Positions 1-33,600 of a DNA stretch of 64,000 nt are shown here, piece by piece (position 1 is the first letter of the stretch; each line of letters begins with the position of its first letter). Both the position numbers and the translations under genes were made by a program. The DNA is taken from assembly GCA_964017235.1 (NCBI GenBank), contig OZ024936.1:90432537-90496536 (forward strand), read 5' to 3'. Under the pieces are notes generated by a model, which worked only from the letters and a program-made list of their open reading frames with translations, had not been told where the DNA came from and searched no databases. This DNA comes from Sabellastarte sp. h YS-2021. Lineage: Eukaryota; Annelida; Polychaeta; Sabellida; Sabellidae.

Positions 1-1168
1 ACACAACACCTCTGAGTCAAGTCATCAGAAAATATACCGGAGTCCGTTACCACTTCTATGCGGACGACACTCAGTTGTTCATTCACTTATCCCCTGATGA
101 TAGTCCCAAGTCTTTTGACCGTCTTAAAACATGTTTGAATGATATTCAGGTCTGGATGTCTGAAAACAAACTCAAGCTAAATCCCGATAAAACAGAATTC
201 ATAGTCTTCGGTGCCAAAGACAGACACAAATGGCTTAGTGACTCACTACCTGTCAATATCCTGGGAAATTGTCTCTCTCCCGCAGATGTTGTACGCAATC
301 TGGGCGTTCTGTTTGATGCAAAGTTTTGTTTCACCAATTACGTAAATTCTGTTATCAAATCCTGCTTTATCAGCCTCAGGGACCTTCATCGTATCAGGAG
401 GTTTCTTTCTGTGGATACATCAGTGGTGATTGCAAATGCTCTGGTCAGTAGTCGTTTGGATTATTGCAACTCTCTTTTTCGCAGTTTGTCATCCCGAAAT
501 GCTACAAGGCTCCAATATGTTCAAAATGCGCTTGCATGGTTTGTCACTGGTGCTTCAAAGTACACTCACATTACATCCACCCTTAGGACACTCCATTGGC
601 TACCCGTTAGACAACGTATTATCTTCAAAACCCTAGTTTTGGTCTATAAGTACCTCACCACTGGCCAGCCTAAGTATTTTGCACCATATCTCCCCTTGTA
701 CAAATCTGCCGTGAATACAAGACGTTCCAATCCCAAAAATTTGTTCCTTCTGGTTCCCTCTTACTGTCCTTCCATCCATAAATCAAAGGTCCATTTTAAC
801 AATAGTTTCTCATATGATGCCCCTAAGTTATGGAATGATCTTCCATATGATATACGCAGTGCTCCAAATCTCTCCAGTTTCAAAAGTCGACTCAAAACCT
901 ACCTATTTCAGAAATCATTCCCACCATAGCTTCTTACTACCGAACACCGGACCGCCTCCCTGGCAACGACTCGGAACATGTCTAATGTCTCATGATTTAT
1001 GCCTTACGGATTGGATGGTGTGCCTTAGAATCCGTTGATACGGAGATTAAGCACCTGGACAACTGATTGATTGATGTACTGGTTTCCTCTGCCATTGCAA
1101 CTACCGGTCATTATGTGACTTGTACAGTGTTGAAATCGACATAAAACCCCAAATAAATTAATAAATAA
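1..1168 (+). mobile_element. L2/CR1-like LINE, 3' part (family A)
   Basis: This is a non-LTR retrotransposon cut by the window start. It holds the C-terminal part of a reverse transcriptase ORF (3-929) and a 3' untranslated region ending in an AAATAAATTAATAAATAAA-type simple tail at about 1150-1168. The 3' UTR contains GATTGATTGATG at about 1064-1075 and a GGAGATTAAGCACC motif like the one before the end of the other L2-like elements in this window. The last 90 bases resemble the tail of the SINE at 33206-33443. A separate 3' UTR remnant of the same family lies at 47432-47560. The abutting minus-strand LINE suggests this copy inserted into it, which is inference. Confidence 0.85.
3..929 (+). 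CDS. LINE reverse transcriptase, C-terminal part
   Basis: One uninterrupted reading frame runs from base 3 to the TAG at 927-929, continuing an ORF that begins left of the window. The catalytic YADD box ([12 protein letters not shown]) is encoded around 53-90, followed by the thumb and the conserved [16 protein letters not shown] and KTLVLVYKYL blocks and the C-terminal APKLWNDLPYDIR block typical of L2/CR1-type elements. Absence of stops or frameshifts over 300 codons indicates a fairly young copy. The endonuclease and RT fingers are outside the window, so autonomy cannot be judged. Confidence 0.85.
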   Translation, partial: TTPLSQVIRKYTGVRYHFYADDTQLFIHLSPDDSPKSFDRLKTCLNDIQVWMSENKLKLNPDKTEFIVFGAKDRHKWLSDSLPVNILGNCLSPADVVRNLGVLFDAKFCFTNYVNSVIKSCFISLRDLHRIRRFLSVDTSVVIANALVSSRLDYCNSLFRSLSSRNATRLQYVQNALAWFVTGASKYTHITSTLRTLHWLPVRQRIIFKTLVLVYKYLTTGQPKYFAPYLPLYKSAVNTRRSNPKNLFLLVPSYCPSIHKSKVHFNNSFSYDAPKLWNDLPYDIRSAPNLSSFKSRLKTYLFQKSFPP

Positions 1169-1189
1169 ACCAAGGTATTTGCTGCCTTT

Positions 1190-3490
1190 ACAGCTGTTTC
1201 ATGATTTAAGTGCCTGTGGACCATTTGTAGTTCCCGTAGATGGTAGTAACATACGCGACATAGCTTAACCATGTGTCTTTGCATCGAAGTTTCAGCATCC
1301 AGGATGACACAAAGGTTTTGAATGATTCAGCTAGAACCATGATATAGCTAAGAAAACTTACTGGGAAAGATGACTTCAGGGAGCTTCTGATTTGATCATC
1401 GCCAATCACTATAAATTCTGTCTTGTCAGGATTTAATTTAAGTTTATTGTTTCAGATCCACACCTGAACGGCCTCAAGGCAATTTGCCAGTTCACTGGTA
1501 CTAGAATCAAAGTTCCTAGAGTCAAGTTCCAAGTAAATTTGCTTGTCATATGAATATAAGTGATGGGTAACATTGAATTTAGATATGACTGAACAGACAG
1601 GGGTTGTATATAGGGTAAAAAGGAGTGGGCCCAGGACTGAGCCCTGAGGAACCCCATAAGGGAGTTGAAAAGAATCTGACAGATGTCTATTTATTTTGAT
1701 CCACTGTTTCCTTGAGCTGAGGTATCAATGATTCCACTTAAGCACAACCCCATCAATGCCATACCAATGCTGAAGGTAGTCAAATAGGATTGAGTGGTCT
1801 GTTTTATTGAAGGCTGCAGATAAGTCCAGAAGGACGAATCCAACATCTGCACCCTTGTCCATTGAGGTCGCAATGTCATTTTGTATTTTTAGCAATGCCA
1901 TTTCAGTTGAGTGAAAAGCTCTATATGCAGACTGATTTTTGTTGGATACACCCTCATGAGCAAAGTGCTTATTTATTTGTTTAGTCACAGCTTTCTCTAT
2001 AAGTTAGCTGAGGTTTAAAACTGGTTGATAGTTCTTGAGAGTGTTTCTATCAAGACCAGCATCTTTAGCAAGGGTGTGACATGTGCAGTCTTGAAACAGG
2101 ATGGGAAAACTGCCTTCCTGTAGGGAGTAGTTCACAATATTTGTAATAGGAGTGTCAAAGGTACACTGATGCAATCAAGGACAAGTGATGTTAGGATTGG
2201 ATCCAAGTCACATGATTTATTTGGTGTTGGCTTAATGATTTTGAGAATAATTTTGAGCTCTATACCTGTGATTTATGGCAGAGTTGTCCCTTTGCCACTC
2301 CCTTTCGAGTTTGTGTTTGCATCTCTTTAATGTTAAAAGCTCACTGTTTATGAACTCTTTATTGACATGTTGTGGAGTTTTGCATTCATGTATAGGTGTG
2401 TGCTTGTCAAGTAAGTTCCTAAGAGTACGGAAATATTGGTGTGATAACAAACTAGCTGTTTTGTAAGGAGCCTGGATAAGCTTAGAATTTGCAATATCAG
2501 ATAAGAATTCACATTCATTTATCTTGCCAAGTTTTCTGATTTTTGAACATTTTACTCTGCAAGAATTTTTGGCCGGAAATGTTGTGGTCTGATATGCCAT
2601 CCTTTACATAATGACAAACTGAGGAAGTGAGGGATTTACAAGTACACAGCACATCAAGGATATGTTCATGTATGTGTGTAGGTGTTGACATATGTTGGAT
2701 AAAATCAAAATCTAGCAAAACTGTGTTGAAATTATCTGTCCAGCTGTTTTGACAGTCTATATGAATATGACATCTCCCAGGTTGATGTTTTCATGTGGTG
2801 ACAAAGCAGCCACTTCAATAAAACTGTTAAATTCCTCAATGAATTTATATTTGCTAGTGCTTGGGGGTTGGTAGATGATATGTTCTATGAGCTATCTTGA
2901 CTGACACTCTGATAATTTGACAGTGATATGTTCAAAGGTGTCCCGCTGATGAGTTTGACAAAGCACACTAGCGATGTCATTCCTCACAAAGACAGTGACT
3001 CCTTCTCCTTTCTTGTTCCCATGTGGGATGTGGTGAGTTACATCATCCACTAGGCCTTTTGTTTCCGGTGGCCTTAGCTAGGTCTCAGTGGATGTTGTCA
3101 TGATGTCAAGGACATTTGATGAAACAAAATCACTAAAGGCTGATATATTGTTTCACAATGACCGAGCATTAAGTAGACAGGCTTTGATATTTGTAACTGA
3201 TGGACCAGAATTCAAGCTAATGTCACCCGAGAGAATCAAGAGGATGGACCACCAAGGGTTGACATTTCTGAAACAGTGCATTACTTGACGACAGTGGGCC
3301 TGCAGGCCAACAAAAGCAATGTTGCAACTGTCCAAAGAGGATAGCAGACTTGGGTGAATAATTGTAGGTAATGGAAAATTATTTTTGTTGGTGGGCACTG
3401 TTGACCGAGCAGTCAAAACAATGAAAAAAAAACAAAAAGTGCAATGTATGACCAATAGAGACCAAAAATTAAAATTTAGAAACATGTGGA
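1190..3490 (-). mobile_element. Decayed L2/CR1-like LINE (family D)
   Basis: Fragments of one minus-strand retrotransposon read in order from high to low coordinates. 3153-3485 gives a hydrophobic N-terminal segment, a 2A-like motif and the start of the endonuclease (CLLNARSL). 2232-2600 matches the linker between endonuclease and RT (KLEREWQRDNS). 1725-1988 holds RT fingers and palm (NQSAYRAFHSTEMALLKIQ, VLLDLSAAFNKTDHSIL). 1206-1657 holds the GSVLGP/LYTTP region and the NKLKLNPDKTEF block in shifting frames. Several frameshifts and stops make it non-functional. The 3' end is missing where family A begins. Confidence 0.75.
3201..3227 (-). other. Degenerate 2A-like ribosome-skipping motif in LINE
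   Basis: On the minus strand this encodes GDISLNSGP, preceded by the hydrophobic LLILS. Several L2/CR1-type LINEs carry a functional 2A (D-V/I-E-x-N-P-G-P) at the same place, just before the endonuclease. Here Glu is Ser and the invariant first Pro is Ser, so skipping activity is unlikely in this copy. Confidence 0.55.
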
Positions 3491-3659
3491 CCTACCTTTT
3501 CTACATACAAACCTTTCTTTCACAGCAGCACAGTACCAAAACAAAATGTTGATAGATTATGAAGCAGTGAAAGATTAGTGCATATGCATGGGACATATAA
3601 AAATAAATTTAACAGTTTACAGAAAATGTGAATTGGCAACCAAACATAAAATATTTTTA

Positions 3660-9480: not shown

Positions 9481-9697
9481 ATGGATAACCAAGATACTTT
9501 AACAGAGGTGACAAATTCAGAAGAAATGAAAGATTTTGGAAATGTTGGATTAAAGTCGGAAACAGTGAAATCATCTTCAGAAAAATCCAGGGGAAACTGG
9601 ACCAATCAGTTTGAATTCATCTTGTCCTGTCTTGGATATACAGTGGGACTTGGGAATATTTGGAGATTTCCATACTTGTGCATGCGCAATGGTGGAG
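9481..9697 (+). CDS. SLC6 exon 1 (N-terminus and TM1)
   Basis: Starts at the ATG that gives a 36-residue acidic/serine-rich cytosolic tail, followed by the family's RGNW intracellular-gate motif (residues 37-40) and TM1. It ends at donor GTAAGT, phase 1, splitting the last Gly codon of the NGGG motif. TM1 has Thr where most family members have Ala before VGLGN. Confidence 0.92.
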
Positions 9698-12600
9698 GTA
9701 AGTTTAAAGCTAGGCCTAAGATCATTATTAATCAGTGCTGCTTGACAAAACTCATTCGAGGTTTTGGTCATGTTAACAGCTAAGGGTAAAATAATCAAAG
9801 TTGAGGCTTAATATCCTTTTCAATCTAGTGTTCATGACTTGTACAAAATAGTTGCCATGCCAATAACTTCAAAAAGTTAATGGCCCAGTGGAAAAATTAC
9901 TGGCCCAGCCTTTAAACGTAAAAATAAAGAAATTGCAAAAAGAAAATCCAATAGTTTATACAACACAATGTACGAGATGTATTCAGAAATTTAAGGCTAA
10001 ACATAGTACCCCACTGTCTCACATTATGAAAATGGAAAAATATGTCAAAAATAGGCTGAAACAAGCTATCAATCTATTAGTTGGTATGGTGTTTCACTTG
10101 TGTTTCATGTGAATTCAAATGAATTCAAAATGTTTCTTTCACCAACTCTGTCCAAGTTATATCTTCCTGGTTGCCAGTTCTCTTATTGGGCCATAAAGGC
10201 CTATGCAAAACTGGCAAAGCACTTTTCCTTTTTGATCATAAATTTGTCAGACATGTTATCAAATTGTGCTAACGGCACAGAAAAATGAATTAAAAAGCCA
10301 GAAACACCAAAATGTATCACAACCCTAAAAAACAGAAATTATGAGCCTCAAACAGAAGTTTGTTTCAAATTTGATGGCCAATATTATTTAACAACAGAAA
10401 CATTTTGAGTGCTTGTTGTGATGACCGATAATAAAAGTTACCAACGTAAAACGCAAAACAAAATCTTGACAGAAAAGGCGAGTTTTATGTTTTGAAGAAA
10501 TTGACCAAATTGAAGACATAATCATTTATTTATGCCCAAAAATATGGATATCAGCATGTCCTTTTTAAACATGCTTTGACAGTGAAAGTTATAAGTGTTT
10601 TTGCAAGGAAAATATGCTCATTTAGCTGTGAGGGTGCTTTTTGTGGGTTGATAATTTTCTAGGAAATATGTGCCCTAAAATTACACATGAATAATTGACC
10701 TACAGTTTACAATGATTTATTTTGTATAGAGTGACCAAACTGGCTACAGAATAAATTGTTATTTACTTTTTTTATTTGACTATTTGAGCATGTAAAAAGT
10801 TACTAAAACACAGTTCATTAAAAAACAGACAGAGATCATTGTGAACACATCTTTATTAATTTGTGAATTTTGATTATCTAAACAAAACATGCAATATGAT
10901 GGAAGACTATATGGTTGTTAAGAAAAAGCTTTTTTGCAATTTCTTTTTAATTATAAAGTACTGTCAAAATAAGATGTTCTTTATATATTTTAGGTGCTTT
11001 CTTAATTCCTTATTTTCTGACTCTTCTTTTCTGTGGAATACCAGTTTTCCTTCTTGAGGTGTACATCGGACAGTTCTCTGGATTAAGTCCACTTCACATT
11101 TGGAGTATCTGTCCCTTGATGAAAGGTGATATTTACTTATATTTGTAAATAATGTATAAGTGAATAGACATTTTAAGATAAAGATATGATGGAATGCTAT
11201 GTTGTTCTGCAATGTTTGCATGGGAAAAAGCCCTTGAAAGCTATTTTCTATTGACTTTGTCAATTCATCATTTTTTTATCTAATGAAAACAAGAACTATA
11301 AATGACATTCTTTGACAAGTTATATTTTAATGTTTTTTTTTTCAAACAGGTTTAGGTTTTTCCATGTTTATTGTTACAATAGCAATAAGCACCTATTATA
11401 ATGCCATTATTTGCTGGACCATAATCTACCTTATCAAATCATTTACCAAGTGTCTGCCTTGGTCATGTTGTCATAACTCTTGGAACACTCCATTTTGCTT
11501 GGAAAGAGGAACTACTGATACATTAACAACAGTACATAATGGCACTGAATTTCAACAGTCTTCCACAATGTACACTGGAATTGTATCTGATTGTAATAAT
11601 GCTACTGACAAGAACAATGTTACTAAAATAGCAGCCTTTGGTCAAAGTTCAACCAATGTCACTGGTCACTGGAGAACACCAGCTGAAGAATACTGGAAGT
11701 GAGTATGGTGTTGATTACTGTGCCCATATTTTTACATGTTTTTCACAGTGTTAATATTCAGGTGTCATATTCACAAAATGTTTTATCACACCTGATTTCC
11801 ATTATTAATTCCATGCAATGAAGTTTGATTAAGAATGGAATTAGGAACAAGATTAGACAATAATGCCAACATGTTCCCAGACAGGTCACCACTCATAGCA
11901 CATGTTTTGACTGGGTATTTTCATAAGACCCATCATGTATATGTCATAATTTTAAGGAAAACATAATCAACCACTAACATACGAACTTCAGCCATTATTT
12001 ATATAACATGTGTACTTTGCAAAAGTTACAAAAGCAAAATTGTATCCCCAAACAAATGGTGAATAACTATCATTATAAATTTTGTATTTAATTTATTACA
12101 TTTTCAGTCAGCAATGATAAGACTGATCCTTTTAAAAGTATAATGTATAATAAAGTTTAATGATTATCTGTCTATTCTAAATTAGCAATCCCAAAATTGT
12201 CTATTTTTTATTTTAATATATTATGCCCCCGTTCCACCCAGCAATTAAGCCTCCCAATTAAGGAATTTTGAATAGCTAAAATATGATAAAATATGTAATT
12301 AGATCCGAACAGATCAAGTTATATTTTTACAATTTTGATTACTTTTTCTTCATGATTCATGTGTTGTTCCAGGCATATTACAAAGTAAATAAACATTGGT
12401 TTCATGGTTTCATTTGTTATGAGAAGAAACTGTTACATTTGATAATACCACCTATCAGTTTCTTCACTGACATGTAAGCAGCAAGACAGCATGTTGGATA
12501 ACCTTCCTTAAGTTTCTTTGCTGTTCAGATAATGACGTTTCACTTTATAATATGTACTCTTGCATGTGCCAGGTTTTACATCAACATACTACTAGGAAAA

Positions 12601-15600
12601 AGAGTACGAGTGCTTTTTAAATTCCTAATATCTGTGTACATATTGCAAACACAGACATGGTACAACCATGAGCCTTTTACAAGGCTACATGTGATGTACA
12701 AGATATCAATCAAAAATGCCAATAACAATTTTAAATTTGATGAGTTATGCAATGGTTGTTTATATCGAGGGATAGGGATAAACATAGGGATAGGGATAAT
12801 AAAGTACTCACCTAATAATTACTACATTACCACTAAAATAAGAGATTTATACAATGCTTTACAAGAAAAACAGAAATCAAAAAAAATTTGCCTGCTTCAA
12901 TATGCATAACAAGTTTGATTTTAAAAAGTGAAAAGAAAAGTTAAAAAAGAACAGAGAGAAATAATCCCCATTTTTAAAGTTTAAGATAACCATAATACCA
13001 TTAATGATATTACATTTTAAAGTTGACAGGGACTCCCCTTGAGAAATTGTGTTAAATCAACTTTACAATTCTAAGGTACATGACAAATTATGGGAGAACT
13101 GTAAAAATGTGCCGCATGTTTTGTGATTTTGGGCAAACTACACAAGTTAAATGTCAACTTAAAGTATTAATTTTTGGCATGTGTAAAATAAGGTATTGGT
13201 ATATTCCCACATGAGATTTCAGATAGATGAGTCACATAGAAAAAACAATGATTGGATTAATTGGCTCCTTTTTAAAGATCTTAAGGTGACCACCAAATTA
13301 AACTATACAAACCTCATATGTTCTACTGATAAAGGTCAAATATAGAAATTATACACTTGCACGTATTTGCGTATTTGAAGTCCTGTACACATTCTTTCAA
13401 AATGATTTTTCTTTAGTATTTGTCAGGATTCTTTTGTTTGCAAAATACAACTCTTATTTTAGCCACTAGTTTGTACTCTAGTTCACGGAAAAGTCATCTT
13501 TGAGATGTGTGTATCTTCTAAATATCTCTGATAAATAGATTCCATGGAAATACTGTGGAAAATTTTCTTCTGTATATGGGTGCCTTATAAAACTCGGAGC
13601 TCCGGAGGTGCGGTCGGAGGGGTGCGGTGGGTGCGGTGGGGTGCGGTAAAAATATTTGTACAATAAAATATTGCTGGATCATATATTTGTAAAATATTGT
13701 TAGAAACCCCATTGTAGCCTCACGTTTTCATCACTCTAGCTGTAGATGTACAACTACCAGCATTTTATATTTTATTTGTTTTAAATATTGCCAGAAGACA
13801 GAGTGAGGTGCGGTGACAGTAAAATATTGCTGGATCATATATTTGTAAAATATTGTTAGAAACCCCATTGTAGCCTCACGTTTTCATCACGTACTGTGGG
13901 TGTACAACTACCAGCATTTGCTATTTTATTTGTTTTAAATATTGCGAGAAGACAGAGTGAGGTGCGGTGACAGTAAAATATTGCTGGATCATATCATCAC
14001 TCTGTGGGTGTACAAGTACTACAGCATTGGAGGTGCGGTGGGGGGGGGGGGGGGGGGGGGGGGGGCGGTGACTGTGATCATAATGTACTCGTACAATTCT
14101 CGGATTCAATGGTGCGGTGACAAAATAAGGCTACAATGGGGTTTCTAACAATATTTTACAAATATATGATCCAGCAATATTTTACTGTCACCGCACCTCA
14201 CTCTGTCTTCTCGCAATATTTAAAACAAATAAAATATCAAATGTTGGTAGTTGTACACCCACAGAGTGATGAAAACGTGAGGCTACAATGGGGTTTCTAA
14301 CAATATTTTACAAATATATGATCCAGCAATATTTTACTGTCACCGCACCCAATAGTGCCTTCACGAAATATTTAAAACAAATAAAATATAAAATGCTGGT
14401 ACTTGTACACCCACAGAGTGATGAAAACGTGAGGCTACAATGGGGTTTCTAACAATATTTTACAAATATATGATCCAGCAATATTTTATTGTACAAATAT
14501 TTTTACCGCACCCCATCACGACCCCCCCCCCCCCCCCTCCCCCCCGCACCTCCAATGCTGTAGTACTTGTCCACCCACAGAGTGATGAAAACGTGAGGCT
14601 ACAATGGGGTTTCTAACAATATTTTACAAATATATAATCCAGCAATATTTTACTATCACCGCACCTAATACTGCCTTCTCACAATATTTAAAACAAATAA
14701 AATATTAAATGCTGGTACTTGTACACCCACTAGATCTATATTAGGTGCGGTGGCAGTATGAAGACACACAGCCAATCAGAGGAGGGGTGCGGTAAAAAGG
14801 TGCGGTAGAGGTGCGGCTCCGAGTAAAGCTCCAACTCCAGCTCCAGCTCCGAGTTTTATAACGAGCCCTGTATATGTTCCAAAATTTGTTATTGCCTTTT
14901 AGATATTATGTTTTGGATATCACAGACAGCATTGAAGATCTTGGTGGCATCAAGTGGGATCTATTTGGCACCTTTGTGCTTGCCTGGATAATAATATTTT
15001 GTTGTGTTTTCAAAGGTATGACTGTGGTTTAAATATTGGAACAAAGTTTTTAAAATTAGTCAAAACATGCAAAAACAAATTTTTATTAATTTGTACCCTG
15101 TAGTTTGATAATTTTTCACAACAAAAGAAAAAAAATGTTTATTTTATAAATTAATTGTCTCTCATTGTAATAGTGTGTAATTAAATCCATTTTCAATTCA
15201 ACAATGCAACTATATTATAGTTGGCTTAACATCCTCTTCAAAAGCAATCAGCACTATTCATATAGCTTCATTTTCCAATAACTAGGTGGATAACACAGTA
15301 TTGATCTTACAGTCCAGAACATTTAACCAAATAGTGTGCAGTGGTTCACATCACTGACCATAGCTGCCCCTCATAATGGAGTCTTAACTTTAGATACCAT
15401 CCAAATACAGAGAAAATTGTTAGCCTTGTTTACTGCAGGCATAAAGACTTCAGGGAAGGTTGTATATGTGACAGCAACAATGCCATACTTTTTAATCACT
15501 GCCTTATTAATAAGAGGAGCCACCTTACCAGGAGCCATGGACGGTATCAGATACTATATCATGCCAGAATGGACGAAACTGTTGGAATTTCAAGTAAAGT

Positions 15601-18600
15601 TTAAAAAATCCTTAAACTGATTCAAGTTAAGATTTCCAAATGACAATAAATAAGGCACAATCTTCAAAAAAAAACAAAGGTGTCTATTGAAGCATATAGA
15701 ACATTGATAAAATGTTTATTGGTAAAAGTAAAGAGAATTAGTGATGCAACATGATTCAAATTAAAACATTTATAAAAGCATTTGTAAAGCATTTATTCTA
15801 TCAATCTGGGAATACAGTAAAGTTACAGGATAATCAGAGAAGTGTAGCAATTGTTCATATAGTATATCACCTATTTATCATGTTTATTGTGTCTATAATT
15901 TTTTATTCCAAAATTATGTAAGGTTTGGGCAGAAGGAATATTACAGATCCTGTATAGCCTTGGGCCGGGATGGGGAGCATTAATCACTATGGCTTCATAC
16001 AACAAATTCAAAAACAACTGTGTGAGGTAAACTAAGCCAAGAATTCTGTTTAGAACCCATACACACTCAAATTGTCACTGATCAAAAATGAATTTCTTAA
16101 CATTTAGAATTATGTAATTTTGCAAAAGTGTAGAGTACCCAATTAAAATAGTATTGTTTTATATTGGTCTTGTTTCAAGAAAAATTGATGCACCGAATAC
16201 ATTAGAAATGTCATATCTACATATTAATAGCATACAAAACAGGTAAATATGACACAGTTCTCTTTCATTTAAATTAGTGGTTTAGGTGTTATTTTAGTTT
16301 GCATAGCTTTAAAGCCAATTTTTTATTTTGTGTGAAGCCAACAGGACAATGTCATTTTCTCTATGTATTTTTGCTTACTTTTAAACCTACAAAGTAATAC
16401 TGTTAAATCATAAGAACTTAGAACTTTAACACACATATTTTAGAGATGCACTTTTAATTCCATTGATAACATGCCTGACAAGTTTATATGGTGGATTTGT
16501 GATCTTCTCAGTGCTTGGTTTTATGGCAAGGAGGGCCAATGTCTCTGTGAAAGATGTTGTGGCTTCAGGTAGCCAAACTGTTAGTGTTATCTATCCATGT
16601 AAGATGCATGTTAAAGTGTACTGACTATCCAGTCAATGGATAAAAATATTCAGAATATCTGTGATATTTTCTTTTCAATTTTCCAAGCAATCTAACAGTT
16701 CTATTAACTCTAGTTCAAGTATCATCAGTTTTTTTCAATAATGCATCAAGTTAAATATGTAATGATAAACTAAATGTATGGGTATATGTAACATAAACCA
16801 AAATATTAATCCTTTATTTATAATGTACTATTTTCTACTTTATGAACTAAATATATGGTGACTATAGTTTTGTGATACTAGCACTTGCTGTGCACTGCAA
16901 ATGAGTAGTAGCTTCTGCACTTCAAGACCAGAACATTATACTAAAGGAAACGTGCTTGCTAAATGTTATTCAGGGATAAATAAAATGTTTTAAGACATGC
17001 TGCTACCTTTTCAGGACCTGGTCTGGCCTTTATTGTGTATCCAGAAGCAGTTAGCCACATGCAATTCTCCCCATTGTGGGCTGTGTGTTTCTTCTGTATG
17101 TTGCTGTCAGTTGGATTGGATAGCATGGTGATACACTTTTAATTATCTATCAAGTTACTTTAATTGAGGAGACATATTGACTGGTGAATGAATTCCTTTA
17201 CTGCTGCCTGCAGTTATTTACCTTTGTCTAAAGATTAGCAATTTTGGCATACAAAGCATCTAATCAATATGTTACCTTTGTTTGGTTTTGCATCCCATAA
17301 ATGGCAAATGCAGAGGGCCTATCAAAATGTGATTGTGGTTATTGAACAGACCTAAAAGCCTAAAATGTCTTGCGCAGTTTCTTGAGCAGTTACTCTTTTA
17401 CCTAGACAAAAGATAATATATGTGTCATGATGTAAAGAGTTACAGCCCAGATTCCTCGTGTATCAGTCAGGAAAGGAAAATTCTTTACTTTGTTAAACAT
17501 ATTATTCAGCTTCTTCGGTGTAAATGTACACCACAACACTGTCAATAGCTGAAATCCACAGCCCTCACTATAAACCAATAAGCTGAATCCACATCCTTCA
17601 CTGTTACTTTTATATGCTGAATCCACAGTCTTTCTGTATCAAGTTGAACTGCCACTTGCACTATTACTTTTGCAAGTAAACTTATGAGAAACATTGCACT
17701 TTAAATGCAAAAGTGGCTGAACAATTTGTCAACTACTGACTTCTTCTAAACCAAGAGTGAAACACATCTCACTGTTTCTGCATCATAACTGAAGCACATC
17801 AAATTTAAATCTAAAATACAACTGAACTAAATGGATTTCTCAACCCCTTATATTTTCAAATTATACAGTCATGAACATTTCAGAGACAAAGAAAGAAACA
17901 AAGATACAAATATATATAGAATTTATACTTGTCTAGCTTTTGCAGAAACAAATAAATATATATTCAATACACCATCCTGGCTTTTCTAGAAACAGAGAGA
18001 CTACCCTAGAATATTGCACTTTGGTCCATTTAGTAAACCACAAGTGAAAAAAATTGTGAATGCTTGGCTTAAGAAATTCTGTCATTATACTGGCTGTTCA
18101 GCCTATTGGTTCATCGGAAATAGGCGGAATTTTGCTGATTGGACTAACAGTAAAAAATAGTTCATAAACAATAGAGTGTGAGTCTTCAGACCCATGTGTT
18201 AACTTAAGTAGAACAATACTTGATTTTTTGGGGTTCAAGATAGCTGAACACATTGGGTTGGTCACATTACAATAGATAGTTATGGGCATGAAACAAATTA
18301 ATCCATTTCAATTGGATAAGATTCTGTACTTAAAACTAACAAACAGTAGCATGCAACTTTTCCAACCTGGCATGCAAGGAATCGAAAACAGAACCTGATA
18401 AATGGAATTCAAGGGAGTTACCATATATGCATAATGTATTGCAAAATATTAATTATTTGATATATTTATATATGCAACTATATAGCTCTGATGTATAAAG
18501 TACATTAAAAATATACAAGAAATATTAAATTTTGTTTAAAATATTTAAACTTGAATTTTTCAAACATTATTCAAATGCATATTTCATCAGCACCTTTATT

Positions 18601-21600
18601 TCAGTTTGCCATAATTGAAACACTGACTAGCAGCATAGTAGATGCCTATCCAGCATACCTTTGGAGACACAGGACTTTGTTTCTTGCTGGAACATGTTTA
18701 ATACTACTTCTACTTGGAATTCCATTTGTAACAAGAGTAAGTAAGAACATTATCACATTGATCTCTTTTGTCCACTGGTGCTTCAAATGTTCAGATAATT
18801 ATGAAAAAAATGTATTCTGCAGTTTTAATTGCCTCATATTATATAATTCAATATATATTTACAGGATAAAACAATATTGCAATATTGAGATTTGTGAAGC
18901 CCTCGGACAATATCACTTGACCAAGGGCTTCATAAATACAATAATGCCCAGAAAGAAGTGTTTTATTTTGTTTATTATACCGAAAGTATTTACATTTTTT
19001 TTCCTATAGAAGTAATTACAAGAAATGCTTGTAAGTCATTCTCATTTAAATTAAATGTGAGGTCACAAACCAATTCAACACACAAAAGTATTGGGTTTAA
19101 TATTACCTATTTAGTAGTAATTGCATGGTTGCTGTACTTATTTCGATTCTATTAAAAGTCTTTTACCTGTAACATTTGAAATATTTTAGTGCACTTTTCA
19201 TGATACATGTTTGAACATACAGGTCTCTCCAAATACATTAACGTCACAAATTTCATTGATATATTTCACCACAGTGCAGACGACTGACGAAAAATCAATA
19301 TCCAAAAGCTCAATACTACTGTACATCGCCACGTCATGAAGACGCTTTTATAAGTAAACAACATCCACTTTGTTTAAATTTGCAACAAAACGGGCATTAG
19401 GGTGATATTTTTTAACCCCAATGATATTGCCCGCAAACACTGCAATCTGATTGGTTAATATGCACTTGAGCAACTGCTATAAAAATTTTATACCATATAT
19501 TTTCAGGGAGGAATATATGCCTTTCAACTTATGGACTGGTACATTGCAATCCCTTTTTGAATTCTTTACATTTTCTTGGATGTATGGTAAGTTTTACTAA
19601 AATACATACATTTAAATTATTTATAAAAACATTACACCTTATGTAACATATGTTGATACCCAACTGCATAAATAATAGCTTTATATTATATTGTCTTCAT
19701 AAGTTACTTGTTTCATAATGTTGTAAGATCACAATTACGCTTGCATTTATAAGTCCGTAAGTGAATTGCTGTTAATAAATTGTTTTTCATAGATTGGTTT
19801 TCACATTTGCTGCAACTTTGTAGTAAAATATAACTTTTAAACCATTTCTGCATATATATATATATAGAAGTGTATCATGTGACATTTCATGAAAGAATTC
19901 TAAGTTGCATGATGTTTGTTTCTGAACTTATGAGTATTTTAGAAAATGCTTACAGTACATTTTTAACAATTATTATAATGGGGTGTTGTAAAAATGACTG
20001 ATGTTATTGTATTTTAAAAATTTTACATATGTATACAGTGATTTGTGAAGTCCAAGATATCTACACAGATATAATTCAAATAATATGTGTGCTTCACTGA
20101 AAACAAACCTTGAAAGAACTCCGAGACATGGTTGGATTAAACAAAACACATTTGGAACTACTTTAGAATGGTTATTGTTAAAAGTTGAAAAGCTGTCAAA
20201 TTGTATGAAGAATTTTAATAGATATTGTCTGAGTCATAAAATAAGTAAAGTGGTGAGTGGGTTTGCATTGAGCTGTAGTCTGAATTATCCTGAAAAAATA
20301 TTGTTCTATTTAACATTGATATCTCATAGAATGTAGTTTTAATTGTTTATATGGCCTATTTTAAGGAGCAGACAGAATATACAATGACATAGAGCTAATG
20401 ACTGGTTCCAGGCCATGTATTTTGTGGAAGATAAGCTGGTTGGCCATATCACCTGCAATACTATTGGTTTGTATAATACTGTCTGTTGGACTACTACAGG
20501 AAGGTCTATATTTAATTGCATGATTTATTGGTTGTTTCCAGTTTCTAAGAATACTAATTTTAAAAACTGCTATAACAGTATTTTTCAGTGTTTGACAAAG
20601 AATACATTCATGCTGGTCAAAAACTAAAATACTCACACCTTGTTTTTCTATGTAGTCATTGTATCTATCAGACCCTTTTGGTTAATAAATCTGATTATAC
20701 TTTCTAAAGGGAAATTTTTTCATTACTGCTCCTAGAAAACTTTTATCATTTTAAAGAAGATGGCTGCCAATACCGTATCTTTGCAAATTATTAGCATTTT
20801 TCTAAACACAAACTGTGGCTGTTTTCTTAGTTGTCGATGGGTAAATCTATTTTCAGTTCCTTGAGCTCAGACCAAGGATTGAATAAATCTATGACTCAAA
20901 AGATCAAAATTAAACAAGTATTGCTGGTTAATCTATTTACACTACTGGGTTGTATTCACAATCTATATTGTCATCGGAAACTGGCACAGGGTCACCTCTA
21001 ATAAAGTTAAATTTAGGATAACCTTAAATAAAGGAGGTAAAAGAACCTCATACAGATTGGAAGAAAATATGAGAGTACATAATAAAGGTGGGCCTGTGCC
21101 AGTAATAAATGAATTAGTTTAAAATGTTAAAGTGATGGCATGATAATTTGTAACTGTGCAAGAGAAAATGAACCGGCCAAACCCCAGCTGTAGGAGTGGC
21201 ATTTAAGGGGGATAGTTTATTTTTGAACATTTCACCTCTTTGATCTCCAGCATTAGCATCATCTGTCATGTATCTCCACACTCAGTCCGATGTCCAGGTG
21301 CCATGCCTCTGAACGTTCTGCAATGCAACATTATTATCAAAAGCAAAAGTGGCACCTGAACATCAGAAGGTGTCAAAGATGTATCAAGCCCCTGCCAAGT
21401 TCATCCTGGATAAAATTAACAAAAAAGTCCTCTATCTTTAGTACCAGTAAGAGGTAGCCAGTTGGAGTTTTCCTTAAATTCAAATAAGGGTAGATTTTAA
21501 TTCTTAGGGATTAATGCTAAATGGTTGAAAATGGCACAGACAGGGCACAATGTAAACCTGTAACTCTAGGTAATGAAATCAGTTTCACTTGGTTATTAAT

Positions 21601-24600
21601 TTGCAATAGTCTTAGAAAACTTTACAACTTACAAGAACAACCTTTTCAAGTTTACTCGGTTTAAAATGAATGTCCTCTCTAGCCAAATGCTTAAGTTGGG
21701 GAAAACCACTAGTTAGTGGCGAACTAGATTTGATAATTTCAAAAAGGAGAAGAATCTTAGTTAGTACACTGCTTTGAATATTTGACCCATATAAGTGAGG
21801 TAACATTGTGTTACAATTCTAGTAAGTAGAGCAATATAAATTATCTTGTTAAGCTTGCCCTGAAGAGGGGTATGTAACTAAACTACCCAGTGATAATATT
21901 TAACCCTATGGTCAGCCAAGCAGGCCACATTCAGACCAAATACAATGAACTTTGACTTAATGGCTGACAAGTAGTAGCCTTTTGTGAATATCTAATCCCA
22001 TTATTAACCCCATTTTTATGCAAACACTCAGAGGAGAATAAATATTCACCTGAGATAGATGCCAGCTCATAATTATTGCAAAAGCCAGGAATGTGTGAAA
22101 CAGGGTAGCGTAGATCCTCTTGGTAGATTGTGAGAAGGCTTGAGACAGTCTGGAATGGCCAACCTGGTTAGGTACTTCTCAGCAGGTCGACAGTCTTAAC
22201 AATTTTAACAATCATAATACGCAGAGAACTAAATTGACTCATTAATTTATAATAGTTGTTCACTTGTATCAACCTATATGACTGGGTGAACCAGGTCCTA
22301 TAATTTCTCAAAATTCCTAGTTGTGATGAACCACCTGTACAGCAGGTCAGCTACAGCATTATACTTTCCTGCAACATTGTAAATCAATGTAAAATGCACT
22401 AAGCCACATGAAAATATTTCTGGCAATTTTACCAAAGAAATTGTCACATGATCTGTCTCTATTAAGCACTGAAACAACAGCTTGATTGTCACAGTTAACT
22501 AACACTCTGTAGCCAGCTCATTGAACATGCCAGACGTCGAAATCCAACAAAACATTAATCATTGCCAGGGAGGCAATATTACAAGTTTGTGAATCTCTCG
22601 GTAGTGGCAGAACATAGAGCTGAGAATTATAAATAGCAAATAAAAAAAAACTTTTTACTGCTAATAGTTAAGCCTAGTTCAGACAGCAATGACTGTAATA
22701 TACTGTACCAATAATATATTTTTGAAGTCAAGAGCACACATAAAAGTATCTATATAATTCCAAACTTGATGGCCATCCTGGGTCATAATGAAGCAAATAA
22801 CGTTGGATATATGCTGAAAAATGGTAGGTCCATGTTTGAATCCAAATAGCAGAGAAAAGTCAATGTAGTAGTTATTCCAATGTAAACGCAGAAGATCCAG
22901 GTCGCCTTAGACAATAGGAACATGGCAAAATGTCCTGCTGATATCCACTTTGAATATCTGGCACCCTCTAGCAAATTTATGTACTTGAGCAGTTGTATCA
23001 ATGGATAGGTAAGAAAAAAATCTGTGTTCAAATGTTTATCAGAGTCAACCCCAGAATTAACAGACTGACCCTTGGCCCAGCTTAGATCAATAATGATCCT
23101 CCTGGTATCAGAAAGGCAATTTATCCCAGGTCGTAAATGGGCTAAATGTAAATCTCTAACATGTGGTTCCGTGAAGGGGACTAATATTGCCACATGTTCA
23201 GTTGCATCGGTCAGATATGCATTTACATGAGAGGAGTACCGTAAGGCACTGATTGATTGATATGATTCATTTTATCAGTCTTGATCACATTGTTTCGTTT
23301 ATAATCCAGAGGGAACCCATATTTGATTAATAATGGTTGCCAATAATAAAGTTTAATAAAGTTGCCAATAATCTTAAAACAAAAAATCCAATTTTTAAAA
23401 TTTAGCCGAGAATGAACAGGTATTTGTAAACCCTTATGATGTCTGTCATCCTGTTGTAATAATTTATGCAGATAAAATATTTCTTTTACATACAGATTTT
23501 CTGTGTCATGTGGATTTTATTTTCTTTGGTCCCTCTAGATAACCTCTAGCATTCACTGTTGGATGTAGTGTTCATTTCTAGGGAGAATTTGTCAACAGCC
23601 AGCGCAGCAGAAATAACATTATCGCCTACAGTTTCCTAAAAGGAACTTTATTGATGTTTGCCTCAGCAAGTGCTTTGGCAGATTTTGGTTTTCATTATTT
23701 GGATAAGTTTTATCTGATTCATGCACACAATGCGGTAAGGCTACCCCACTGAATAAACAAACCGTATTCTTACCTTCCCAGTAAACATCAGAAACATTTT
23801 TAAATGGTTTAAACGTTTACAAAATGTTTTTAAAACCTAATTAAACCCTATCTTATGGTTTTCTAAACATTTCCAAGTAAACATTTACATTGCAATGTTT
23901 AAAAAACGTTTTCTAAACATTCTCTAGACAAACGTTTTTAGTGAAAATGTATATTAAACATTTATAAAATAACTCAAGAGTTGAAACATTTTTTAAAATA
24001 TTTATAAAATAGCTGAAGAAGTGAAGGTTTTGTTGGAAATGTGTTTTAAACATTCATCATGAAATGTTTGATAAAGAGTACACATAAAATGTTTAAACAA
24101 CATTGCTTGTCAAGTGTTTGAAAAACTTTCTATGAAAAACGTTTTTTAAACCTATATTTTTAAACCTTCACCTTCAAACATGTTTTAAAAACATTCTGTT
24201 GCAAAATGTTTCCTAACAAACGTTTGCAAAACCCCAAAATGTTTACTGGGTTAATTCATAGTTTTTCTTTTGGTTTTGACAATCACAGCATTACTGGCAT
24301 GACAGTGACTGACACCCTTGGAATCTACAATAATGCTGGGATCACACTGACTATTATTATCAGAGCAAATATCTTCTACAGACAAAACTTCATAGCGATT
24401 ATTGTGACCAACATAACGGGTCACTATTCCCCGTCAATCAAGCTTAATTGATACACAGAATCACAACGACATGGTTTTCTCGTCATAGTATACCTGACAA
24501 CTTTACCACCTGACTTTGTATTCTGGGATTTACCATACAACTGTGAAATTGTTCAATTAGCACATTTGACTTCAGACCAAGTCACAACAGATTTGTGAGA

Positions 24601-27600
24601 ATAAGTTTTGAACTGACTATTCCTTTTGAGAATACCATAAAGTAATACATCTGAATCAGTAAATCTTCACGCTGAAATTAGTTTCTGTACATTTTTAATA
24701 TCAAAGAAGTGCCTATCTTAAAAATTGGAATTATATATACAACTTATGTACATTATGTACAGTTTTTACATAATTTTCCTTATCCACTTTGTTGTGAACT
24801 GGTTTTTTAAGTAATTAATCAGTCATGATTTGTTAATTCCAATTCCAATTCAACTTTTGTAGCGCTTAATCTCTGCCTAAGTGACAGACTCTAAGGCGCA
24901 ACATCATAAGCATAGTTACAAAAATCATTGTCCTTGTCCATAGCTATGGTCGTCATCACGGAGAACGCCATATGAGGTGGAAAATACAAAGGAGGATAAG
25001 CTTGGCAGAATAGGTATGCCTTAAGTTTTTTTCTGAAGGAAGCAATAGAAGTGGCAGATTGTACATCATCAGGGAGTTTATTCCATATTTTGGGAGCATC
25101 ATATGCAAAGCTTAGACCAAACTACTTTGTGGATTTGTAAATAGATGGTTGGTATTGAGGAACATGTAGAATTATACCATCAGATTGACTCAACCGAGTA
25201 TGATAGGCACATTGTCTAACTTTGAGAAATGGGCTGAAATATTTTGGACAGTTAGTATGTAGGTATTTATATACCAACAAGGCAGTCTTGAAGATGCAAC
25301 GGTGCCTTATGGGTAGCCAATGAAGGGCTTTTCTTAGTGGAGTGGTGTCAGAAAGACATGTGGTTCTGCAAACAATTCTGGCCAGACTGTTTTGAATGCA
25401 TTGTAGCTTGCGTAGGTTAGCAACAGATAGACCCCTAAACAAGGAGTTACAGTAGTCAAGCCTACTGTCCACAAGTGCGTTTGCAGCCATAAGAGCAGCA
25501 TCACGAGTCAAGTACTGTCGAATTTGTGTAAGATCCCTCATCTGAATGAAACATAGTTTACATACATTTTTAACATGTTTGGTGAAGGAAAAGTCTGAGT
25601 CAAACCAGACACCCAAATTCTTAACAGCATCTGAAGGTATCAGTGATTCACCCAATATATTTACTGGAAAGAATGGGTTTAACTTTTCTTGTTGAGACTT
25701 GGCGCCAAATATAATAAAGTCAGTCTTATCAGCATTCAGCTTTAGTTTATTTGCACACAGCCATTGTTTGACATCTTCGAGGAACTTTCCTAGCCGATCG
25801 AAGGCATTTTTTGCATTTTTGTGTTTGAGGTGAATAAACAGCTGTGTGTCATCTGCATAAAAGTGAAATTTGACATCTGGATGTTTAGAGATTACTTTGC
25901 TCAAAGGTGTGGTATACAACGAAAAAAGAATAGGACCAAGAACTGAACCTTGTGGCACACCAAACGTAAGCTTTCTAGCCTCAGACAGAACAGAACCAAT
26001 CTTGATGTATTGGGTACGATCAGAAAGGTATGATTTGAACCAGTCAAGGCATCTACCCCCGACACCGAACCATTTTCTTAAGCAATCAAGGAGTTTGCCT
26101 CACCTCTGGCTAGAGATAGGTGAATCTGATTCTTTATAGACAAAATAGCTGTTTCAGTTGAATGGCCACGTCTATAGGCAGATTGATACTCGTTTTCCAA
26201 CCCATGGAGAGAGACATGTCTACTGAGTTGTGAGGCAACTACACGCTCCACGAGTTTTGAGATAAAACTCAACCCAGACACAGGGCAATAGTTTTTTAGT
26301 TCATCCTTTGATAAAGAAGATTTCTTTATCAGTGGAGTGACAACAACACTTTTGAAGCCATCTGGGACAGCACCTTCCAACAAAGAACAATTCACAAGTT
26401 TTGTGATAGAAGGAATCAGTATATCAAGGCAATCCTTAACTAGGAAAGTGGGCCAAGGATCCAGGAGACAGGATTTTGTAGGTGAATTTTTGATTACCTT
26501 CGCAACATCGTCAGGTGAGACATCATCAAATTTGACAAATCCTGGCGGATTCACTGGAGATGCCAAGGAAAAATGTATTTTTAATTGTTGTTTCTCAACA
26601 CAAAGATATAAATAACACATACAGTATTTCTGATAATTTACAAGTACAAATCACTTCACAAAGTATTGTATGTTTTGGTATTCACTCTTCCTATTAAATA
26701 TTCCTTTTTCACATATAACTCTTTAACTCCAACAAGTTTCTCTAAACACTTTATCTATGTCCAGTTTCTATAACTAACATCTGAATGTATAACTGACTCT
26801 AGCCCTCCTACTCACACTGACGACTGTAGAGTGAAGAACTGAAGTTATAAGACTCTGAGGGGAAGCTAAATATTCGAACTATATATACTTGAGTTCTCTA
26901 TTGTGTCAGCTAAGTAATTTGTGCATATAATACTGAGGGTAAGCTTTTACAAATATACATACGAAACATATCTGGACAGGGAATGACTGGGACATGTCCT
27001 TGGACCTACAAAGGTTTTACAAGATATTTACACAGTGAAATACTTGTTATAATTTGACATTAGGAAAATGCTGTACAAGACAATCTATAAGGAAATTGCT
27101 GAGTAGGATTAAATAAATATAATATCTTGAGCAGAAATACAAACACTAATAGGATGAGAGTGAGTTAGTAGTGAGAACACCTTATATGCAAGCCAATGAC
27201 ACAAATGGGAGCTAAGGTTTTCCATTAACAAAAGTATTTAAAGCATTGAGGAAAAACCATTTAAAGATTATTTAGATGGGTAATATGTTTTTTTTCACAG
27301 ATGTGTGCAAGTTCTGGACATGAAGAGCATCTTTTTTTATTCATTTTCTTGTGTAGATGTGTTACAAAGAAGGTAATGAAACTTTAACAAAATAATATAA
27401 CTACTTGCTTTAGTACTAGTACAAAATACATCTGTTACAGCAAGAGAGATACAATCATTTTTTGTATAGATGTAGTGTCAACAAAACACTTTAACACTAA
27501 AGCAACCACATGTTCCACACCAAGAAAAAAATACAAACATTTAAATAGTTTCAAACTGAATCACTGAAATGAACAAACAATTACTACCCCATCACATTGA

Positions 27601-30600
27601 TTTATCAAAACAGGTAATTAAATGTTTAGTTTTTCTGCCAGAATACCAAATTTATCATTGAAAACCTTATTCTGGCCTTGACTAACATGCGAAAACTTGT
27701 TATCAGGTAAAACGTTTTTCAGCATTTTTGGAAATAATCCCATGAAAGGTTTTTATTATTAAGTTTACTTTTGTTCATAAAAATTTTACCATACAGTAAT
27801 ATCAAATTAATTGCATAGAAATACATTTTGTCTAGGTTGTGGCAGCCTAAAAGAATATCTAAAGTTGCAAACTTAATTGCTATTGGAAACATGCTATTTA
27901 CCCAGATTTCAATTTTATCCCAGAAACTTTTAACTGTATCACAATAGTAGAAATAATGTTCTAAATTGTCAGTCATATGACACTCTATACATGCAGGAGA
28001 GTCTCTTACACCCCACAAAAATAATTTATAATTGCAGTTGAAAACCCTGTGCAATATTTTATATTGTAAACTTATCAAATACGTAGTCTTGACAATTTTG
28101 CTTGGAAGCGAATTCGATATAATTTTTTAACGAACTGGCAATGCACCTGTTGACTTGTTACTTTTTGTACATTCCTCAAACATAGTTTTTGAATTTTATT
28201 ATCTTTTTCCATTGACCTAGACATTATTTTTGGAGTTTTTGTTAAGACTGATTTTATACATCTAACAATTTGGTAATATTTTAAATGTGGAATTCTAATC
28301 CTGAATTTGCTTTCAATTTCAGTTCTTGAAAAAAAGTTCCATCACTGTTCAAAATGTCATTAACTAACTCTATACTTGCTTGTTTCCAATCAAGGTATTC
28401 ATTGCATATATGTGACCCTCCAATTTGAAAAGTGTCATTATTAAGTAATGGCTCCTGAAGTAGTTCCTCGAGGCTCATTGGTTTAACTGAGATAAATTCA
28501 AACCAAACCTGCAGTGAACCTTTGTAAAAATTACTTTTCGGGTAAGATTCTACAGTGGAATAATATAATTTTTTTAAATAACAGTTCTTTTTTAACACCC
28601 ATCAAGTTGTATGATAAGGTTTTCCATATTGCATTTATAGAGTTAGTCAGCCTTTTTATCCACATAATCTTTGCAGTTTTAAAAACATCAAGTGCTGACA
28701 TCATTTTTATACCTCCTAGATCTATCGATTGAGTTAAATCATCTTTAGCTATTAACGGATGTCCTTTATTCCAAACAAATTCAAGCATCAGTTTATCAAT
28801 ATCGTTAACTACATTTTTTTCAATATGCAAAATGGAAGCTAATAGATTAATATGTGGTATAACCAAAGATTTAAGGATGGTTATTTTACCTTTTAAAGTT
28901 AATGATCTGGCCTGCCAGGTATTTAATATACCTTTAATTGTTTTCATTTTTTCACTTGTGTTTAAACTTTTGGTTTCCTCACAGTTGAGTGAGAAGTGGA
29001 CTCCCAAAGTTTGAAAGGTATTCTGGGTCCAGCGAATACCCAGATTATCATCTTCATATAGGTAACCATCATTTTCTACAATAATACCTACCCTTTTTGA
29101 TTTGTTAAGTTTTAGTCCCACGTATCTATAAAACCTGAATTGCTTCATATACTGAGGAATTGTATCTCAAGATAATGTCATGTCATCAGCAAGCTGACAT
29201 AGCTTAATACATATATTGTTCACTACAATTCCCTTAATGTTGACCAAGCTATGCAAAATTATGGCAACAATTTCAGCTGGTAGCAGAAATAGGAGATCAC
29301 TAAGGGGACAGCCCTGTCTGATCCCTCGGGATATTTTAAAGAATTCTGATTGGTAACCATTATTGGTGATACAGCTTTCAATGTCACAGTAAAGGGTAGA
29401 TATCCATTTCTGAAAAGTTTCATCAAACCCAAATCTTTTTAAGCAAGTATGTAGAAAGTTCCAGTTTATTTTATCAAAGGCCTTTTCAAAGTCAGCCAGT
29501 AATATAATACATGGGTTTTTACTTAATTTACAGAAGTCAATCATATCAGCAATAAGTCTAATATTCTCACCATAAAATCAACTTTCCATGTATCCAATTT
29601 GATCTGGATTTATAATCTCACTCAATGCTAATTTAAGCCTTTTTGCTAAAATTTTTGCTAAGATCTTTTGTCTGTATTCAAAATTGAAAGGGGTCTCCAG
29701 GATTCTAATTTAGTCAGGTCTTTTCCTTTTTTCGGTATAGGACACAACACACCTTATTTCTGAGATTTTGTTAAGAAGCCATTGTTAAATGCATCATGAA
29801 AGCTTTCCAAAAGCAGATCAGAAATATCACTCCAAAATATTTTATAGAAATTCTCCTGGTAAACCATCGGGGCTGGGTGCTTTATTATTTTTTAATTCTT
29901 GGACAGCTTTTTCTAGCTCAGTCATTGTAATGACTCCATCACAGACCTCCTTTGTTCTGTTTGATAATTTTGGAGTCAATACATTGTCTAAGTAATTGTT
30001 ACATTCACCCTCTGTCATATTGAAATCTGTTTCAGAACATGAAAAAAGTTTACCATAAAAGACTTTTTGGCCTTCTACGATTTGTGATGGATTACTGATC
30101 CGCTGACCATCTATATTTAAAGCTATAATATGCAACTTTTCTTGTCTTACCTTTTCCAAATTCAAGAAGTATTTGGAAGGTTTTTCATATTCATTAATAA
30201 ATTTGCATCTTGAGCGAATTAAAGTGCCTTTTGCCTTTTCCTCATAATAATGTTCTATTTCAGATTTTATACTTTCATACTCATCAAGTTCAAGTAGGGA
30301 TGGGGAAGGAGTTAATCTTTCTTCAAGGTGTACCAGCCTCCCTGACAATGTGTTTATATAATCACGTTGTTTTTTATTCCTTTTAATAGAAAAGGATTCT
30401 AATTCGGCATTTAATATAATCCCAGGCCAAATGCTTAACGTTAAGATTTGGTGTATCTAATCTTCCTTCTTGTATTGTAGATTTAATAAGTTTAATATAA
30501 TTGTCATCTTGTAGCAAACTTGTATTTAATTTCCAAAGACAACTCCCATGTTTGGGTTGATTTTCTAACAAAATAGTTATCTTCAAAAGGCTATGGTCAG

Positions 30601-33600
30601 ATTTCAAGCCAGGCTGAATATCTGCTGTTTCAATCACATACTCTAAATGACTGGTGACCAGAAAATAGTCTATTCTCGACTGGACAGGTCCATGGCGGGT
30701 ATTTTCACGCCTGGTGAATCTATAAACACCGGGATACTTAAGATTCCAAATATCTACAAGGTCATGGGTTTCAATTAAATGTAGTAGGTATCTGCTGTAA
30801 GAATGACTTTGGCTTTTTTGGAATGTTTTAAGATTTTCCAGGTTAAAATTTAGATTGCCGCCAAGGATAACACTGTGCCCAAAATATTTTTCCATTGCAT
30901 TACTTAGAAGATGGCCAAAGTTCACTTGCTCAGTTACTTTATCAATTGTTGGTGCATAGACATTTAACAAAACATAATTTTTTTCATTAAATGTGCAGTC
31001 TAAAAGGAGGTACCTACCATATTCACCATGTGAGATTGAATGTATTTTAACAACAGTGTCTGGTGCAATTAAAATTGCAACCCTACGAAAATTTGATTCT
31101 CCATGTGAGAAGAATATTTTGCCACCCCACTGCCACATCCCAGAGCATCTTATTCTGAATGCTATTGATACACCTAAAGCATATAACAAAATATATCCAT
31201 AACTTCCTTTGCCGTCTAGAGCTTGGGAACAAGGTGTGTTACAAACTTGTAAGATCTTGGAAGTAATTAGACAAGACAACTAATAGAATTGACTTGCTTG
31301 GACTTTTCCCAAGAACTAAAGCAATTATCTTTACAATCAGCTAAATATTTTAAGTTAAGACATTAGTACAGAATAATAGGCTTAACATGCAAGTCTTTAC
31401 AATGTAGAACATGTATCTCACACAAGCTTTAAAAGAACATACAATAAGGAATAAGAATTTGACATAATATATTTAAGAAGAATGTCTTTCATAAGACATG
31501 TAATAACATATAACACATAAAATATAAAGTTATAAAATATATATACAAAATGTCTTTCATAGATTGTCCATTCACAACAACTTCATTCCCAGTCCTACAC
31601 ACAAGGTACAGCCAGAAATCCCACACTCTCCTTGGTGATACAGAATGCATTTTTCAGCCTTAACTTGATTCCAGAAACCACATAAACAAATGAACTTGAA
31701 ATGTGTGTTCAACGTAAAGTAGTTGTGGTGATGGGGCATGTTGTGTAAACAAAGGCAGTATCTTTTCACTACTGTACATACATCCTATTTTGGGAGAATT
31801 GGGATAGTGTCTGAAACATTCACATGATTCAAGTAAAAAGTTAGATAGGATGTCTTCATTTTCATAGCAAATTTAAAAGTATATACAATAGTATAACTCA
31901 AACTAAAATGATGAAATAAATTTATAAAAGATTGTCATGTTAACAATGCATAATGTAAATTATTTATAGATTATTTGTAGGGCATACCTCTGCCAAGGCA
32001 CACAATAAGTAGAAATTGAATCAATATGATGCAGTGTATTCCTGGCTGCTATATGGGGAGAAGTAGAATGAAAATATTGGCGCAATAAGATGGGAGATAT
32101 AAGGCCCAAGGAGTAGTTAATTTTGCAAACACACATGGAACCAGAGAAATGGACAGACAACCAGAGAAACAGTCATGAAAATAATACTTCATTGGCGGTA
32201 GTGAATTAGATGCATAATTTAGAAAGTATGATTTTTTAAAAGGCTCCCTAATATATATAAGCAAATGGAAAAATCCATATTTTGATATTTTGTGTATGCA
32301 GGTAGTGGGTCAGATCAGTTCCAAAATTTAACGACTTTTAAGTTGGACCATGGCCCATCTTCTGATTCCTTTCAGGAAAATCCCGCCAGTAGTATTTGCA
32401 TATCCCTGTACAAAGGTACTTAATGATAAGTAAATAGGAAAATTCAGATTACGTTTTTTACCCAGACAGTGATCCAGATCACTTTCAAAACTTAATGGGA
32501 TCTAGGTTGGACCAAGACCTATCTTCTATTTTTTTCAGGAAGATCCAACCACTAGTATTTGAATAATCCAGCCAACAAACAGACAGACAAACAAAGAAAT
32601 GGTCATGAAAGTAATACTTCCTTGGCAGAGGTAAAATGGCTAGAGAGACAACTAGTGTTAACTAGAGTATTGCTTCACAAGAAAAATAAAGAAATGTTTT
32701 TTCACAGCAAAATAAAAACATCCCTATGAGCAGTGATGATTTTGCTGAAATGACCATCTTGCTCTGTTTAATATGTTGTTTTTCCATTTCTGCAAAAAAA
32801 TTCAACCGAACAGCAAAAAAGGCAGGAAAATGCTTTCTTGAAAGATTGTCGGATTACTGGGTATACAGAATACAAGATCTGATAGTGATTGCAGAAATAA
32901 TTTGAAATTACCTGGGAGAGAAGCTTATAACTTGCTTATTATTGGTAATAGAATTTGCAATGTTAACCAACCTATAGGAAATCATGGGCTAGAAATCTTC
33001 TGAAGGTGTTCACATTTGACCTTGCATTTAAGGTCAAATAAGGAGAGCCTATCTTAAAAGTGCTTATAACTCACTTATTCTTCAAATTACCGGGAAGAAA
33101 AGCCTATAACTCACTTATTATTGGTCCTAGAGTTGCAATGTTAAACCAAGCTATAGACAATCATGAGCTAGGAATCTTCTGATGTGTTCAGATTTGACCT
33201 TTGGCTGGGGGCTACAGTGGCAGAGTGGTAACACTCTCGCCTCCCACCTCTGAGATTGGAGTTCAAATCCTGGCCCGACCTCAAGTGGGAAAGCTGGTAG
33301 TAGCTTTCCATTGGTTGGCAGTTTACAGTACAGAAACTTGACCAACTGTATGTATTGGTTTCTTCTGCTCATAAAACTATCCTTTGTGATATGACCCATA
33401 CAATGTGTTTAAAAAGACGTTAAAACCCAAATAAATAAATAAATTGACCTATGGCCCTCCTTCAAGGTCAAACAAGGGTAGCCAAACTTAAGGTGCTCAT
33501 TACTCTCTTATTTTTGGTCTTATTTCTCCTTCAAATGTCAAATGAGGATAGCAAAATTTAAAACTGATTATAACTCACTTATCCTTGGTCCAAGAGGTTT

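Follow-up and report, generated by a model that had tools for sequence, protein, structure and literature searches.

Recent unprocessed (duplication-derived) pseudogenes and segregating loss-of-function alleles in redundant tandem gene families keep their introns, have an intact tandem copy nearby and may carry one disabling indel together with the selection signature of a functional past. In one bivalve, gene presence-absence variation is high, according to the available text of PMC7653742. The gene described here, which lies in the window (the whole 64,000-nt stretch of DNA that was analysed), resembles both classes: its introns are kept, an intact tandem copy lies nearby, it shows the signature of past function, and its one disabling indel is 17 nt long and leads to a premature stop. 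No clear difference from unprocessed pseudogenes or segregating null alleles was seen. Based on the sequence, it is one of a tandem pair of GlyT-like SLC6 genes and very probably carries a genuine 17-nt deletion of recent origin that shifts the frame in exon 10. Its family is redundant, and the gene is most likely a recent pseudogene or a segregating null allele. The locus would cleanly show a tandem transporter gene at an early stage of its death, the rest of it still nearly intact and an intact sister nearby for comparison.

In order to place the gene in its family, we compared its product with protein profiles and solved structures. The first 497 residues matched PF00209 with 550.4 bits, and the part encoded after exon 10 with 61.4 bits (cut-off 27). 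The closest relatives with solved structures were GlyT2, then GlyT1. Among the best 60 of 76 matched sequences, the top 11 were GlyT2, GlyT1 or chains named only 'Transporter', and GABA and proline transporters ranked below these 11 among the matches listed. A Trp in TM6 aligns with a Trp of GlyT2 that has a role in glycine selectivity, and a GGIY stretch at the start of TM9 is common to the window gene and GlyT2. With this profile match, GlyT2 and GlyT1 as nearest relatives and the aligned TM6 Trp, the gene is, as judged by sequence, an SLC6 sodium:neurotransmitter symporter nearest to the glycine transporters. Unlike SLC6 glycine transporters, however, it has a frameshifted TM9 and yields no complete protein by normal splicing. 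TM9 and TM10 belong to the transport core of the LeuT fold.

The gene consists of 13 coding exons on the forward strand, from 9481 to 44211. Exon 1 (9481-9697) contains the ATG and TM1 in an open frame, ends at the donor GTAAGTTT and has a homologous exon in the tandem copy. Exon 2 (10994-11125) encodes TM2, and exon 3 (11350-11698) encodes TM3 and the large extracellular loop. Exons 4 (14903-15015) and 5 (15439-15593) are followed by exon 6 (15923-16026), which encodes TM6 with the Trp described above, and by exons 7 (16444-16568), 8 (17015-17127) and 9 (18605-18736), the last of which ends in phase 0. Exon 10 (19507-19586), with the acceptor ATTTTCAG and the donor GTAAGTTT, encodes TM9 and carries the deletion. 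Exon 11 (20366-20466) encodes TM10, exon 12 (43171-43338) TM11-TM12, and exon 13 (44059-44211) the C-terminal tail with the normal stop codon; the tandem copy has a homologous exon of 153 nt. All internal exon boundaries are AG/GT, and the claim of an earlier sequence-only reading that 12 of the 13 exons are open and in phase was confirmed, with canonical splice sites throughout. Another placement of exon 12, at 23582-23752, was judged spurious, because the real TM11-TM12 exon lies at 43171-43338.

The window spans C14:90432537-90496536 (G000), and six paralogues were available on the same contig. The tandem copy (L029) is located about 77 kb upstream, its exon 10 at C14:90375366-90375462, 76.7 kb before that of the window gene; when checked for breakage, all 13 of its exons were open. 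Five cluster copies (L030-L034) lie at C14:63.36-63.50 Mb and were read in part, covering 12, 10, 6, 5 and 4 of the 13 exons. Between the window gene and the tandem copy, identity was 91.6% in coding exons (1926 sites) and 82.5% in alignable introns (6083 sites), and exons 1 and 3 differed in length by 12 and 3 nt, i.e., by whole codons. As side observations, cluster copies C3 (L032/L047) and C1 (L030/L049) have no ATG where that of the window gene lies, C3 having a stop codon at this position; these two copies either start elsewhere or are themselves impaired. In cluster copy L034 (C14:63499500-63502500), the final 42 nt of exon 8 have another, partial match.

Exon 10 reads cleanly through in all six paralogues, in each of which it is 97 nt long (1 mod 3). 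In the window gene it is only 80 nt (2 mod 3), whereas the handover to exon 11 needs 1 mod 3. The loss therefore amounts to 17 nt, and alignment to each of the six paralogues gave the same missing length. The sequence-only reading was thus right about a frameshift in the TM9 exon, but its estimate of about 20 nt was too large. Outside the gap, 76 of the 80 bases are identical to the tandem copy. The deletion junction maps on the forward strand to 19553-19555 against the tandem copy and to 19548-19557 against all six paralogues, with two equally good gap placements for the tandem copy, seven for cluster copies C4 and C5, five for C3, four for C1 and three for C2. As had been proposed, in-phase reading halts at the TGA at 19558-19560 (forward strand), within TM9. 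Normal splicing consequently gives a truncated product of 497 residues, and with the normal splice sites there is no uninterrupted 12-TM reading frame.

We then considered whether the gap might be an error of assembly or consensus, the individual in fact having a normal 97-nt exon 10. A DNA search of the genome's own 1.79-Gb assembly (73 matches from the 40 candidates scored out of 806) returned the window locus once, at 100%, and the tandem copy in two pieces at 85% and 79%; cluster copies and many copies of a repeat from intron 9 were matched as well. No second version or haplotig of the locus was found among the scored matches, so there is no second haplotype for comparison, which leaves some room for an error. 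In contrast, a clean 17-nt loss is unlike a homopolymer error, the six paralogues are clean across exon 10, and the remaining 12 exons are free of frame errors, which disfavours poor base quality. Furthermore, indels of 10-30 nt make up 16 of the 111 that separate the introns of the two tandem genes, and a 17-nt deletion is therefore an ordinary event here. We consider such an error improbable. Of the three options offered before, namely a very recent pseudogene, a segregating null allele or a local assembly error, all still stand, with a real and recent loss favoured.

To estimate the age of the break, we fitted a branch-specific codon model to the seven copies, using 652 codons present in at least two copies with the lost positions masked. 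The input comprised all 13 exons for the window gene and for the tandem copy, and 12, 10, 6, 5 and 4 exons for the cluster copies; the tree node uniting cluster copy C3 with C1/C2 had a bootstrap of only 49%. The dN/dS ratio was 0.38 on the window branch (approximate 95% interval 0.24-0.62, from a profile interpolated on a grid), against 0.33 both for the tandem copy and for the remaining branches. A model with its own ratio for the window branch was not preferred (2dlnL 0.27); this lack of difference fits a loss too recent to show relaxation. An old pseudogene, with dN/dS = 1 on the window branch, was rejected (2dlnL about 14). These values show purifying selection over most of the window branch. 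Where the other available copies are invariant, private changes numbered 16/324 in the window gene versus 9/319 in the tandem copy (Fisher p = 0.22), which leans weakly toward relaxation without being significant.

Frameshifts gave a second measure. The 111 indel events in the 6083 aligned intronic sites between the window gene and the tandem copy included 89 that were not multiples of three. Scaling to the length of the coding sequence, and taking half for a single branch, gives an expectation of 14.3 frameshifts on the window branch if it had been neutral throughout, versus one observed. The chance of at most one frameshift is 9e-6 under full neutrality; it rises to 0.07 if the neutral part was 30% of the branch and to 0.22 if it was 20%. 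One frameshift against about 14 expected therefore points to a break late on the branch, and we infer that it would fall in roughly the last third or later. The deletion would thus be recent relative to the age of the duplication.

As to how the deletion arose, a short and imperfect repeat may have led to slippage during replication or to end-joining. Against the tandem copy, microhomology is 1 nt exact at the best placements and 4 nt at neighbouring ones, and against cluster copies C4 and C5 it is 2-3 nt. Microhomology of 1-4 nt makes such an origin plausible and lends it weak support. Nonsense-mediated decay (NMD) is predicted by a general rule from the position of a stop relative to the last exon junction. 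Since the premature TGA sits 295 nt (spliced) upstream of that junction, the transcript is a predicted NMD target. The transcript would then be degraded, or else the 497-residue protein would be made; with TM10-TM12 gone and little of TM9 left, this protein would presumably not transport. The loss may be tolerated because the tandem copy, with its 13 open exons, and the further, partly read cluster copies remain.

Splicing might in principle rescue the gene. We scanned the stretch between the 3' ends of exons 9 and 10 for AG acceptors and combined these with GT donors, allowing exon lengths of 12-400 nt and holding the exon 9 donor and the exon 11 acceptor constant. Nine AG/GT choices kept the frame open to the normal stop. 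Seven of them lie in intron 9 and therefore contain none of exon 10; the other two use the AG at 19509-19510 (forward strand), one with an earlier donor and one, alone among the nine, with the normal exon 10 donor. This last choice, which the sequence-only reading did not mention, would yield a frame-restoring exon 10 of 76 nt (19511-19586), so that an AG 4 nt into the exon, presumably unused in the parent gene, would compensate for the deletion at the RNA level and give a full-length protein. The window-branch dN/dS, which does not differ from that of the other copies, would agree with such a rescue, but a late break explains it equally well. Human transcriptomes, in the available text of PMC8055015, use acceptor pairs a few nucleotides apart, but there the upstream acceptor tends to be the stronger as a rule. 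Moreover, the site reads GAG, and none of the 59 acceptors in the seven copies is GAG (38 CAG, 13 TAG, 8 AAG). The GGIY stretch and the rest of the start of TM9 would be replaced, and with the first half of TM9 rewritten and TM9 shortened by 7 residues, function is unlikely. If the rescue were true, the gene would persist as a transporter-like protein with this altered TM9, but we regard it as very unlikely.

Skipping of exons was even less convincing. As the earlier reading had stated, skipping exons 10 and 11 together restores the frame at the cost of TM9-TM10. Skipping exons 9, 10 and 11 does so too, whereas skipping exon 10 alone, or exons 9 and 10, does not. Both frame-restoring skips stay open to the normal stop, so that a shorter protein could be made; but TM9-TM10 or more of the transport core would be lost, and neither exon 10 nor exon 11 has unusual-looking splice sites. 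We give this explanation hardly any weight. A different intact TM9 exon, which the same reading had allowed for, received no support either: with exon 10 of the six paralogues as queries, none was found in the window, and the best matches outside exon 10 were at the level of chance (E 0.055 for protein, 0.015 for DNA).

Collectively, these results leave a real, recent loss of the window gene as by far the best reading. COX1 on contig C647 shows no stop codon when translated with the invertebrate mitochondrial code, and the host was taken to be an invertebrate on that basis. A segregating null allele would be plausible if the host were an animal with presence-absence variation like that described for the bivalve (PMC7653742). 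The available text of PMC8055015 and PMC7653742 does not treat this gene. The finding is ordinary and by itself adds no new biology; it can serve as a candidate marker where loss-of-function alleles segregate, and as a caution for gene annotation.

Several further features of the locus and the genome were observed. Intron 9 contains an insertion of about 600 nt (18860-19469) that ends 37 nt 5' of exon 10, has a 21-nt hairpin (18890-18937) near its left end and matches many genomic places at 71-91% identity; it is a repeated element. Intron 9 of the tandem copy is 166 nt long, without this insertion. Intron 11 (20467-43170) spans 22.7 kb in the window gene versus 2.0 kb in the tandem copy, and minus-strand open frames that we take to be reverse-transcriptase-like lie in it, within 25122-26650 and 28075-31279. 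Intron 3 contains, at 13590-14860, GTGCGGT-rich repeats in both orientations and a long G run near 14040. Upstream of the gene, at 1111-3491 on the minus strand, are broken open frames, presumably reverse-transcriptase-like and from a LINE-type element. Finally, intronless SLC6 genes matching PF00209 were found at C1:92018880-92158597, C6:69755728-69757347, C6:105763775-105804732 and C104:38132-39927 (G000). Several of these span nearly the whole profile and some have internal stops, and intronless SLC6 copies thus exist beside intron-bearing GlyT-like ones in the same genome.
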